64,000 bases of DNA from Verrucomicrobiaceae bacterium (lineage in GTDB: Bacteria > Verrucomicrobiota > Verrucomicrobiia > Verrucomicrobiales > Verrucomicrobiaceae), in contig CANIBP010000004.1 of the NCBI GenBank assembly GCA_947466075.1, positions 1 through 64,000 on the forward strand, read 5' to 3'. The translations under genes were made by a program, and so were the position numbers. Positions 30,458-58,587 of the stretch are shown here, piece after piece; position 1 is the first letter of the stretch; every line of letters begins with the position of its first letter. Below the pieces are notes generated by a model. That model made no database searches and was not told where the DNA came from. It saw only the letters and a program-made list of their open reading frames with translations.

Positions 30458-30724
30458 CTACCGCCGCAGCGCATTGATCAGTTCATCCACTTTGTTGATG
30501 AGATCCTGCATCTGACTCTGGTTGTAGCTGCTGTCAGCACCTTGGCCGAGTGTGCCGACGCCGTTGCTGTTGTTGCTGGTTTGAGCCAAAGCGTTGGCAA
30601 TGGCGTTGTTAAGATCGTTGATCATCGCTCGCTGCTGGATGTCGGCATTGAGCGAGGTGAGTTGGCTGCGCATCTCTGCCGATGAGTTCGGCGAGTTGTT
30701 CGCGGGTTTGGTGGGATCAAACAT
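30458..30724 (-). CDS. Small coiled-coil-type hypothetical protein
   Basis: An 88-residue protein starting at the ATG at 30724 (MFDPTKPANNSP). After a polar N-terminus it is predicted helical, with heptad-like leucines and many Asn/Gln (SQLTSLNADIQ, then LINKVDELINALRR). No signal peptide is seen. It probably forms an operon with the larger gene at 31210-32001 upstream of it; the pair is now separated by the inverted-repeat cassette at 30725-31203, whose left arm begins one base before this start codon. Function unknown. Confidence 0.55.
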   Translation of the reverse strand: MFDPTKPANNSPNSSAEMRSQLTSLNADIQQRAMINDLNNAIANALAQTSNNSNGVGTLGQGADSSYNQSQMQDLINKVDELINALRR

Positions 30725-30761
30725 AAGACTTGGAGAAGAGGAGATTTGGAGACTGGGAGAG
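30725..30761. repeat. Left arm of inverted repeat around four-helix-bundle gene
   Basis: A 37-base purine-rich arm beginning AAGACTTGGAGAAGAGGAGA and ending GGAGACTGGGAGAG. It is the reverse complement of 31167-31203 at 33 of 37 positions; the four mismatches are one single base and one run of three. Confidence 0.85.
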
Positions 30762-30782
30762 GTGAGGTAGTCTGGTGGCCTT

Positions 30783-31154
30783 ATGAAGATCACCCGACAT
30801 ACCGAGCTAGAAGTGTTTCAGCGGTCCTTTGAGGCGGCGATGAAGTTGTTTGAGCTGTCGAAGAAGTTTCCGCGTGAGGAGATGTATTCGCTCACAGACC
30901 AAGGGCGGCGCTCATCACGTTCGGTGGCCGCCAACATCACCGAGGCATGGCGAAAGCGTCGGTATGAGGCTGCTTTCATTGCCAAGCTCAGCGATGCCGA
31001 GACGGAAGCGGCGGAAACGCAAACCTGGCTGCGTTTCGCCCACCGCTGCGGATACCTTGCGGAAGACCATTGGCTGGCAATAGAAGATGAGTATGAGCAG
31101 ATCATTCGGATGTTGGTTTCGATGATGGCAAATTCAGAGAAGTGGATTCTTTGA
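30783..31154 (+). CDS. Four-helix-bundle protein (S23 / 23S rRNA intervening-sequence family)
   Basis: A 123-residue protein of the family found in rRNA intervening sequences and as the accessory Avd protein of diversity-generating retroelements. Landmarks are the LEVFQRSFEAAMKLFELSKKF first helix, YSLTDQGRRSSRSVAANITE in the middle, and the AETQTWLRFAHRCGYL third helix. Basic faces suggest nucleic-acid binding. It lies opposite in strand to both neighbours and is enclosed by 37-base inverted repeats at 30725-30761 and 31167-31203. This looks like an inserted cassette. No reverse transcriptase or variable repeat is visible nearby, so a retroelement role is not supported. Confidence 0.88.
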   Translation: MKITRHTELEVFQRSFEAAMKLFELSKKFPREEMYSLTDQGRRSSRSVAANITEAWRKRRYEAAFIAKLSDAETEAAETQTWLRFAHRCGYLAEDHWLAIEDEYEQIIRMLVSMMANSEKWIL

Positions 31155-31166
31155 AGAAGACGAGGA

Positions 31167-31203
31167 CTCTCCCAGTCTCCCCCTCTCCTCTTCTCCCAGT
31201 CTT
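31167..31203. repeat. Right arm of inverted repeat around four-helix-bundle gene
   Basis: A 37-base pyrimidine-rich arm beginning CTCTCCCAGTCTCC and ending CTCCTCTTCTCCCAGTCTT. It pairs with 30725-30761. It starts 12 bp after the stop of the four-helix-bundle gene and ends 6 bp before the convergent gene's stop codon. Confidence 0.85.
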
Positions 31204-31209
31204 GGTCGC

Positions 31210-32001
31210 CTACGGCGACACCGTGACCTTCACCACATCGGTCCAGTCGCCGTTGGGGGTGCCTTTGTCCCAGAAGCGCATGCGGTATTCGCGCACTTCG
31301 GGGGTGCCTGCGACGAGCAGCGGACGCTCGTCGATGTAGGGGCTTTCGGTGTCGATGGCGAGGAACTCCCAGGCTCCGGTGCCACGGCGGCCTTCGATAT
31401 AGACACCCATATGATTGTATTTGTAGAAGGTGTGCTTCACGCATTGGCAACCCGTGCCTTGCAGCATCTCGGTGATGAATTTTGGCACGGCCTTCTCGGT
31501 CGCTTCGGAGCCGACGATGCCGAGGTCGGTGGCGATGGCATCGGTCATGGCGGAGGAGAGCTTCATCTTGGCGATGAGAGCAAAGATGCGGTTTAGCGTG
31601 CCCGGCAGCGCCGCCGTGACACCGGCGGGCAGCGCGGGCGCGGTGAAGGTCGGTAGCACCATTGCCACGGTGCCCGCACCGGTGAGCACGTCATCGACGG
31701 CGTCGGTGGTTGATGGCGAGAAGTTGCGCACGGCGCTGAGCCAGGTGCCGAGGACGTAGTTGGCGTATTTCGCGTCGTTGACGCTGGCGGTGATGTCGCC
31801 CGCGACGACGCCGAGCGTGGCCCCATAGATGGGGAGTTTGATGCCGTAGTTGTCGAGCCAGTTCACTTGGTCGCCGATACGGCTTGGGTAGTAGTTGGTA
31901 CGTTTCATTTTAGTGCTGTTGTTGAGTTTGGGTTGAGGTGAAAAATAGTCGGACGGCTGGTCCCAAAGGCCGCTGTCCCAGTTGGATTGATCCCAGTTCA
32001 T
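31210..32001 (-). CDS. Hypothetical protein with Trp-rich N-terminus
   Basis: A 263-residue protein with a start at 32001 (MNWDQSNWDSGLWDQ); a second possible start is the Met at about residue 32 (MKRTNYYPSRIGDQVNW). There is no signal peptide. An alpha-helical N-terminal half (GVVAGDITASVNDAKY, ALPAGVTAALPGTLNRI) precedes a beta-rich, fibronectin-like C-terminus (REYRMRFWDKGTPNGDWTDV). Proteins of this shape recur in Bacteroidota and PVC genomes, but I know no function. The stop codon lies in the palindrome GTCGCC-TAC-GGCGAC. It is probably the first gene of a pair with 30458-30724. Confidence 0.6.
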   Translation of the reverse strand: MNWDQSNWDSGLWDQPSDYFSPQPKLNNSTKMKRTNYYPSRIGDQVNWLDNYGIKLPIYGATLGVVAGDITASVNDAKYANYVLGTWLSAVRNFSPSTTDAVDDVLTGAGTVAMVLPTFTAPALPAGVTAALPGTLNRIFALIAKMKLSSAMTDAIATDLGIVGSEATEKAVPKFITEMLQGTGCQCVKHTFYKYNHMGVYIEGRRGTGAWEFLAIDTESPYIDERPLLVAGTPEVREYRMRFWDKGTPNGDWTDVVKVTVSP

Positions 32002-32052
32002 GCGGGCAGAGTTCTTGGTTCTGAGTTCCTGGTTCTTGGTTGGCGGGCGGGC

Positions 32053-32111
32053 GTAGGCGCACTTGCCAAAGTGCGAGTCTGGGGCCTTCGCGTTCTGGCG
32101 AACGCGCCTAC
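32053..32111. repeat. GTAG-bounded twin-hairpin (BIME/REP-like) element 1
   Basis: GTAGG (32053-32057) pairs with CCTAC (32107-32111). Enclosed are hairpin 1, CGCACTT-GCCA-AAGTGCG (32058-32075), a GGGG-containing linker, and hairpin 2, CGCGTTC-TGGC-GAACGCG (32089-32106). The three stems abut perfectly as a three-way junction. GTAG at the outer border is the signature of REP sequences mobilised by REP-associated tyrosine transposases; no such transposase gene is in this window. Confidence 0.7.
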
Positions 32112-32114
32112 ATC

Positions 32115-32405
32115 AGCGGCGGGGTGAGCACTCGCTGTGGCGGGGTGATCACTGGCACAGCCGGGGTGCGCCATGCTTGCGGCGGGGTCTTCCATGAATG
32201 GGCCTGGGTGTTCACTCCGGGAAATGGGGAGCAGCCCCGAGCGGCGGATGGGCCACCCCGCGTCGGTGATGAAGCACCCTGACAGGCGGACCGGCGTCCA
32301 TGAGCGGGCCGTGGAGCACCCCGCGCCGCCAATGGGCCACCCCGAGCGGCGGAGCAGCCACCCCGCCGCGTTCATGGAGCACCCCGGACGAAATGGGGCG
32401 GCTGT
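32115..32405. repeat. Mirror-symmetric 21-bp minisatellite
   Basis: GGGG-centred units recur at 32121, 32142, 32163, 32184, 32205 and 32226. CCCC-centred units follow at 32235, 32256, 32277, 32298, 32319, 32340, 32361 and 32382. Spacing is exactly 21 bp within each half, with a few degenerate cores. The motif flips from GGGGTG to CACCCC near 32230, so the two halves are inverted copies. There are no unique spacers, so it is not a CRISPR array. Confidence 0.8.
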
Positions 32406-32592
32406 TTGGAGGCTCAGGACCGCCCTTTTGCCCAGGAACACCGTCCCTGAAGCCGGGAACGGCATCCGTGGCAGGGATAGGCGGGCTGTTGGAGTGAAAA
32501 GAAGCTTCATCGCGGACATCGGGTGTGATGGCCGAGATAGGAGCACAGACCCCGCCCCTGCCGTTAGTCAATCATCGTTGACGGGTCTTGCC

Positions 32593-32650
32593 GTAGCTTC
32601 GATTGGCAATCGAAGTTTCGGGGAGGGATTCGATTGCCAATCGAATCTAC
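32593..32650. repeat. GTAG-bounded twin-hairpin (BIME/REP-like) element 2
   Basis: GTAG (32593-32596) and CTAC (32647-32650) enclose CTTCGATT-GGC-AATCGAAG (32597-32615), a GGGG-containing linker and GATTCGATT-GCC-AATCGAATC (32627-32647). The two palindromes are near-perfect inverted copies of each other. Architecture equals element 1 although the stem sequences differ. The CTAC overlaps the stop codon of the XRE gene. Confidence 0.7.
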
Positions 32651-55091: not shown

Positions 55092-55111
55092 TCATCAAAG
55101 CATGAGAAAAT

Positions 55112-55173
55112 GGCAAAGGAATGGGGGCAAGGGAATGAAAACCAATTCTGACTTTTGAATCCATTCCCTTGCC
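55112..55173. repeat. Palindromic repeat, copy 1 (left of GxxExxY gene)
   Basis: GGCAAAGGAATG (55112-55123), then GGCAAGGGAATG (55126-55137), which pairs perfectly over 12 bp with CATTCCCTTGCC (55162-55173). The 24-nt loop includes GAAAACC and TCTGACTT. It ends 16 bp before the GxxExxY start codon. Confidence 0.85.
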
Positions 55174-55189
55174 AACTAGACCTTCTCCC

Positions 55190-56014
55190 ATGCCCATATA
55201 CTCTGACTTAAAGCTCAGCTCCGTGAGTGACGTCGATTTTGAAGCCATCGACGAAGCCGTGATGCGCTGCGCCTATGCCACTCAGAACAAGTTTGGTCGT
55301 CTTTTCGATGAACGAGTCTATGAAAACGACCTTGCAGCCCGCCTGCGTGCCGAAGGTTTTGAAGTTCACACACAAGTTCCAATCAAGGTCTCACATGGCG
55401 GCTTTGAAAAGATCTATTATCTCGACCTCGTCGTGAACCAGATGCTCTATGAACTGAAAGCTGTATCAGCTCTATTTGACGAGCACAAAGCCCAATCCTT
55501 GCACTACGCCATGCTTCAGGACATTCGACGCGTGAAGCTCCTCAATTTTGGTGAACCCAAGGTTCGAGGCCTCCTGCTACGAAACGCTATTTTGGCTCCA
55601 TCCCGCCATCAACCCGTGCTGCGCAACTCCGGCTGGCGTGTCCTCACTCCTCAGTGTGATCGCCTCTTTTCTCACCTACGTGCCGTCATCAAGGACTGGG
55701 GCACGCACCTCTCTAGTCAACTTTACAACGAAGCCCTCATTCATCACTTCGGAGGCGAAACCCAATGCCTTCAACGCCTCGATGTCAAAGTGGATGGAGC
55801 AAAACTCGGAACCCATCCCGTGCAAATGCATAGCCCTGACCTCGCCTTCACCGTCACAGCTCTCACACGCAACCAACCATTCCTTCGTAACCACCTCAAC
55901 ACCCTACTAGCCCATACCGACCTTCACGCCATCCAATGGATCAACCTCAATCACTCTCGAATCGAGATCACGACTCTGGAGAAAGATGGCAACGAATTGG
56001 GTGCAAGAGAATGA
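55190..56014 (+). CDS. GxxExxY-type protein, PD-(D/E)xK nuclease-like
   Basis: A 274-residue protein starting at the ATG at 55190; an in-frame TTG at 55169 lies inside the repeat and is less likely. Residues 36-44 (GRLFDERVY) match a degenerate GxxExxY motif. LDLVVN with Asp79 and YELKA with Glu88/Lys90 give a D-x8-ExK arrangement typical of PD-(D/E)xK nucleases. Typical members are near 125 residues, so the extra ~140 C-terminal residues are unusual. The last codons (GNELGARE) lie in the right-hand repeat, so the coding end has grown into, or evolved from, the repeat. Function unknown. Confidence 0.75.
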   Translation: MPIYSDLKLSSVSDVDFEAIDEAVMRCAYATQNKFGRLFDERVYENDLAARLRAEGFEVHTQVPIKVSHGGFEKIYYLDLVVNQMLYELKAVSALFDEHKAQSLHYAMLQDIRRVKLLNFGEPKVRGLLLRNAILAPSRHQPVLRNSGWRVLTPQCDRLFSHLRAVIKDWGTHLSSQLYNEALIHHFGGETQCLQRLDVKVDGAKLGTHPVQMHSPDLAFTVTALTRNQPFLRNHLNTLLAHTDLHAIQWINLNHSRIEITTLEKDGNELGARE

Positions 56015-56062
56015 AAACCGTTCTGACTTCTGAATCCATTCCTTTGCCCCCATTCCCTTGCC
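55988..56062. repeat. Palindromic repeat, copy 2 (right of GxxExxY gene)
   Basis: The right arm CATTCCTTTGCC-CC-CATTCCCTTGCC (56037-56062) pairs with the left arm at 55988-56013 at 20 of 26 positions. The left arm has drifted where it is translated as the C-terminus of the GxxExxY protein. The loop keeps GAAAACC and TCTGACTT. Confidence 0.8.
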
Positions 56063-56093
56063 AATCACCACCCACTTTTCACACCAACCCACC

Positions 56094-58439: not shown

Positions 58440-58495
58440 TGTGGAAACCCTGAACGAGGATCACCGCACTCCATGAAATCACTCAGTCAGTAAAT

Positions 58496-58556
58496 GGCAA
58501 AGGAATGGGGGCAAGGGAATGAAAACCAAGACTCAGTTCAAATCCATTCCTTTGCC
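58496..58556. repeat. Palindromic repeat, copy 3 (without cargo gene)
   Basis: GGCAAAGGAATG (58496-58507) pairs perfectly with CATTCCTTTGCC (58545-58556). A second GGCAAGGGAATG follows the first arm and the loop begins GAAAACCAA. It is the same family as the copies at 55112 and 55988 but stands alone, 31 bp before a sulfatase start codon. Confidence 0.85.
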
Positions 58557-58587
58557 AATCATCACTGCTTTCTCACCCCAGATCATC

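Follow-up and report, generated by a model that had tools for sequence, protein, structure and literature searches.

The locus at 30725-31203 of the window (the whole stretch of 64,000 nucleotides that was analysed) raises the question of why a gene of the S23 family stands between two protein genes, enclosed by a pair of complementary arms. Since the early 1990s, it has been unclear what S23 proteins do and how the rRNA intervening sequences that carry them originated (PMC4990558). We propose, with a probability of roughly two in three, that a copy of a minimal mobile element, an S23 hairpin cassette, lies in the window and that its S23 protein acts on the hairpin arms around its own gene.

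The 5' arm (30725..30761, + strand, in the sense of the gene) and the 3' arm (31167..31203, +) are 37 nt each, are separated by 405 nt and are reverse complements of each other at 33/37 positions, exactly as the initial annotation had described. Between 30001 and 32000, ungapped inverted repeats scored up to 27 versus a maximum of 18.5 in 200 shuffles, and a chance origin of the inverted repeat is excluded. In RNA folded from either strand, 33/37 arm positions paired with the opposite arm, and the arm duplex energy was -61.3 kcal/mol. The arms enclose a single gene (30783..31154, +) encoding a four-helix-bundle protein of 123 aa (S23 / 23S_rRNA_IVP), which was assigned to the family by its matches to PF05635 (105.2 bits, cut-off 33.8) and TIGR02436 (102.2 bits, cut-off 24), and whose solved relatives, identified by sequence, are PDB entries 2rld and 2gsc. 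In relatives, fourfold sites of the gene were 0.30-0.39 identical versus 78-82% identity of the protein, indicating purifying selection on the protein. No transposase gene is present between the arms, unlike in an insertion sequence or a classical transposon.

Both neighbours, gene A (31210..32001, -, 263 aa) and gene B (30458..30724, -, 88 aa, ATG at 30724), are co-directional and lie on the strand opposite to the S23 gene. The left arm directly adjoins the start of gene B and the right arm stops 6 bp from the end of gene A, which confirms the arrangement first read from the letters. Gene A is multi-copy (13 matches in its own genome) and gave no family match in the profile search; gene B, its downstream partner, has paralogues beside gene A in its own genome and in relatives and had no match in Pfam, NCBIfam or PHROG. 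The initial annotation missed that the arms are internally built of 8-nt tandem phrases (GGAGACTT GGAGAAGA GGAGATTT GGAGACTG GGAGA), with the general form GGAGANNN; the 5' arm thus consists of G-rich phrase repeats AAGACTTGGAGAAGAGGAGATTTGGAGACTGGGAGAG. A second, unstranded phrase tract of 7-nt GTTCTTGGTTCTGAGTTCCTGGTTCTTGG lies just upstream of gene A (32011..32045), and a phrase of this type also forms the hairpin between genes A and B in one relative (L052 of G029). Also upstream of gene A, tandem repeats at 21-nt spacing occupy 32140-32390 inside a minus-strand ORF (31998-32546). A long palindrome (GTAGCTTCGATTGGCAATCGAAG...GATTCGATTGCCAATCGAATCTAC) lies at 32593-32650, close to where a short helix-turn-helix-like ORF ends.

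The own genome (6.37 Mb) contains four PF05635 genes, and all four are enclosed by inverted repeats whose sequence differs in each case and is always a short tandem repeat, with units that are 10-nt GTTGACGGTG-like, 8-nt GGAGACTG-like, about 7-nt TTAGGTG-like and 6-nt TCGTCC-like; two of these four loci fall below the threshold of the later scan, one having an arm beyond, or right at the limit of, the region scanned. The window phrase was found at many other places in this genome, while the reversed control gave almost no matches, and several of these copies make up hairpins that contain no S23 gene. One such GGAGAC hairpin sits in frame (net 51 nt) inside a protein gene, and was lacking from the orthologue in G017 (83% identical) and from the more distant homologues aligned. 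Beside GGAGAC-type tracts on three contigs, a GC-rich stretch of 150-170 nt starting GAGCCGAGCACGGTGGCGACGTGCGA was observed (L030/L036 on G000:C65, L011/L035 on C110 and L009-L010/L034 on C85); it gave no Rfam match at E<=1, and a lone miRNA match in the Rfam search of 11 loci at E<=1 was judged to be chance.

S23 genes were present in 51/56 related genomes. With a flanking inverted repeat score of 13 as threshold, arms flanked 79% of 110 S23 loci in these relatives, compared with 4.2% of mismatched flanks and 1.5% of random segments of the same geometry. A scan of named genomes for S23 genes of the window clade gave at least 587 relatives, and the best 80 of them were spread over many phyla, with isolates of Cyanobacteria and Bacteroidetes among them, although some MAG labels may be mis-binned. 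Among these 80, 83% of the 78 readable loci had arms versus 18% in the mismatched control, which is high because the phrase is shared among those loci; nearly all of their arms were variants of a purine-rich 7- or 8-mer. The loci were picked by score or by likeness to the window, on contigs that are often short, so that the percentages describe those samples, and armless loci were included in the flank statistics. A subset of the latter (L172-L175, L177, L182 and L187) is vertically inherited with conserved neighbours and no arms, and is possibly a domesticated form. A 23S motif was not found in any surveyed S23 locus. The stem-bounded S23 cassette outside rRNA that had been suspected from the window alone is thus supported, and its arrangement is general across the surveyed S23 loci.

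The arm units are degenerate tandem phrases of 7, 8 or 10 nt (best-lag identity 0.69 versus 0.40, mostly at lags of 7, 10 or 8 nt), and the 5' arm contains more G than C in 137/145 loci. In the nearest-neighbour test across non-homologous loci, which served as the main test, the phrase followed the protein clade (0.445 versus 0.264+-0.015, z 11.8), also within Verrucomicrobia only (z 6.4). The secondary correlation of arm and protein similarity, computed over all protein pairs, gave a weak though significant result (Spearman 0.098, 1 of 500 permutations). The check for conservation of the arms with the gene had an unexpected outcome: arm sequence varies widely between clades, but arm presence and phrase type follow the gene. 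Phrase copies numbered from tens to more than 100 per genome, up to 167, and many were paired in + then - order 40-140 bp apart, that is, as gene-less hairpins. They were commoner in genomes with a matching S23 clade (p 0.0015 among the genes listed; the value is approximate, as each cassette adds its own arms to the copies). Some genomes, however, had many phrase copies although the loci read included no S23 gene of the matching clade, which, like the armless subset, speaks against the proposed element. Judged from these comparisons, the S23 genes and arms found across phyla are one large class with the window copy as a member.

Mobility was visible in Nostoc, where the cassettes have arms of 7-nt GGGGGCA. 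In an all-against-all comparison, the cassettes were 87-98% identical over about 450-470 bp; the shared unit comprised the gene plus about 25-45 bp on each side, identity ended inside or at the arms, and in the best pairs more than 2.4 kb of flank was unrelated. A search for empty sites in 16 cyanobacterial genomes gave one clean case, in which a 513-bp cassette (L258) faced two uninterrupted flanking genes in Mojavia with 83% identity across the junction and no visible target duplication. On these sequence comparisons, mobility of the S23 cassette is well supported.

The main rival is a passive passenger, in which phrase arrays and hairpins spread by slippage and recombination, S23 cassettes are copied by homologous recombination across common phrases and the S23 protein has another job, e.g. 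RNA binding or stem stabilising. Phrase arrays are indeed abundant recombination targets, and in G016 a recently copied stretch (L096/L110) seems to continue beyond the arm and to include part of gene B, as would be expected from ordinary recombination or gene conversion. The L258 site also holds other tandem arrays in relatives (G061 and G066; Nostoc loci L290 and L316; 21-nt TTTGAACTCCGTTAATGAACC; TTCGTCATTTGTCA plus CCCCAAT heptamers). Against passive spread, the phrase follows the protein clade across phyla, and neither the Mojavia empty site nor the flanks of the Nostoc insertions offered a phrase tract for recombination. We regard this rival as unlikely, though it is the strongest of those considered.

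An empty site with genes A and B about 7 bp apart, as had been predicted for the window, was not found among the A-B copies read. A and B form a multi-copy pair, and the other copies read had about 100-270 bp between the genes, nearly always with a long stem-loop. In four of them (C68 and C19 of the own genome, G016 and G020), the hairpin had the same GGAGAC phrase and no S23 gene, so the hairpin is separable and occurs with or without the gene. The hairpin sequences were otherwise unrelated among copies (GGAGAC, GTTTGC/GTTGAC, GTTCTTGG and GTCCGCACAGTCC types, among others) and the types were scattered over the gene A tree, in which one sequence is partial, indicating that A-B hairpins are replaced over time. 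Among the copies more than 80% identical in gene A, only the window had an S23 gene. S23 genes with 78-82% identity were also found in more distant A-B copies of G008 and G016 and at B-linked loci in two further genomes, on the opposite strand wherever gene A was seen. Recent horizontal entry of the window S23 gene into the A-B site (79% versus 46% protein identity) is not claimed; fourfold sites are largely saturated. The best explanation of these sequences would be that the window cassette sits in an intergenic hairpin hot spot between A and B. The hairpin might instead be a functional part of the A-B operon, as a processing site or attenuator, with the S23 gene incidental, and the keeping of a strong hairpin at nearly every A-B site read despite changing sequence speaks for this. 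However, S23 genes are flanked by similar arms at many sites unrelated to A-B, and we consider the operon reading improbable.

The S23 family is related to Avd of diversity-generating retroelements, a member of the same four-helix-bundle superfamily (bAvd 2.5e-7; PHROG 3206 2.6e-7; PMC10053308), and S23 could act like Avd in a retro-mobility that uses a host reverse transcriptase in trans. The window protein, however, scored 24.3 bits against the NCBIfam Avd model versus a cut-off of 80, and PF00078 was not matched in four S23-rich, near-complete genomes (G005, G016, G030 and G039), which makes this route very improbable. RAYT/REPIN systems resemble the S23 class in that inverted repeats enclose a single gene, that the genome also carries numerous gene-less hairpins of the same type, as the genome of the window does, and that gene and hairpin type appear to co-evolve (PMC3116915). 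They differ in their Y1 transposase and GC-rich palindromic REPs, as the S23 cassette has neither and carries tandem-phrase arms, and RAYTs sit separately in S23-bearing genomes with their own REPs. In the same genus, Y1 transposase genes (L318-L337) were observed with clean inverted repeats of REP type (among them AGCGCCAAAGGCGCG and CCTGGGCCAACGGCCCAGG), and relatives had up to 36 Y1_Tnp matches per genome. That a RAYT moves the S23-type hairpins in trans, as with REPINs, is the least probable reading, since Y1_Tnp genes do occur in 53/56 relatives but 20 RAYT loci of the same genomes had, where arms were present, GC-rich palindromic REPs and in 0/20 cases S23-type phrases, and G037 has an S23 gene with no Y1_Tnp match.

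Because reverse transcriptase was not detected in several S23-rich genomes and RAYT arms are of another type, an element in which S23 acts on its own arms is favoured. Its layout would be a G-rich tandem phrase arm, the S23 gene and the complementary arm. In this element S23, a basic four-helix bundle that resembles Avd and forms pentamers in a solved relative, would recognise the phrase of its own arms, either in hairpin RNA or in single-stranded DNA, and promote the spread of gene-bearing and gene-less hairpins to new sites; we infer this role in mobility. Conserved residues of S23 include several arginines and lysines, which would fit nucleic-acid binding. To our knowledge, the family has no nuclease or recombinase motif, and insertion, probably preferring existing hairpin loops, may use host strand-exchange or replication enzymes. 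RNase III could trim the stem, so that insertions into transcribed regions would be tolerated, as they are for the intervening sequences of 23S rRNA. The S23 protein of Xanthomonas is reported to be a homopentamer of four-helix bundles (PMC4990558).

As in the window, terminal complementary arms enclose the S23 gene in 23S rRNA intervening sequences; these lie in an rRNA helix, whereas the window copy lies between two protein genes. The intervening sequence of Coxiella burnetii is 428 nt long, has a 28-bp terminal stem, an S23 gene and tandem repeats of the heptamer GACAGAT before the S23 start codon, and is excised by RNase III (PMC4990558); it is similar to the window cassette in length and in having complementary arms and short tandem repeats. 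Mobility of intervening sequences was proposed by Ralph and McClelland in 1993 and, as cited in PMC4990558, left open. The S23 intervening sequence is the already known kind, and what may be new is the wider hairpin-cassette class. In the open-access papers searched we found no description of phrase-clade matching, gene-less hairpin populations, empty sites or this wider class, although one may exist elsewhere. Foldback-type transposons (Drosophila Galileo, PMC3573991) have long, internally repetitive inverted ends like the S23 arms, but Galileo, which is related to the P element of eukaryotes, has a transposase and the likeness is anatomical only. STRR heptamers, short tandem repeats of heterocystous cyanobacteria (cited as Vioque 1997), occur in the host group of the Nostoc S23 cassettes, and a possible link to their arms is proposed. 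The odds appear even that there is a distinct cross-phylum mobile class with S23 as its only gene and no known recombinase, transposase or reverse transcriptase, in which S23 would recognise the tandem-phrase arms of its own hairpin and drive the spread of hairpins with and without the gene. This class would then include, as particular cases, the intervening sequences of 23S rRNA and perhaps the STRR repeats of cyanobacteria. If S23 genes normally ride in mobile hairpin cassettes whose arms are specific to the clade, direct tests become possible of what S23 targets, of where rRNA intervening sequences came from and of what gave rise to a large dispersed family of short-tandem-repeat hairpins, and there may be a mechanism of mobility that involves no known recombinase.

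Counted together, the short-loop hairpins of the window showed no excess over shuffles. Three gene-less hairpins of the window (55110-55174, 55987-56063 and 58495-58557) have the common phrase GGCAAAGGAATGGGGGCAAGGGAATGAAAACC ... CCATTCC(C/T)TTGCC in units of about 14 nt and represent a further dispersed hairpin family.
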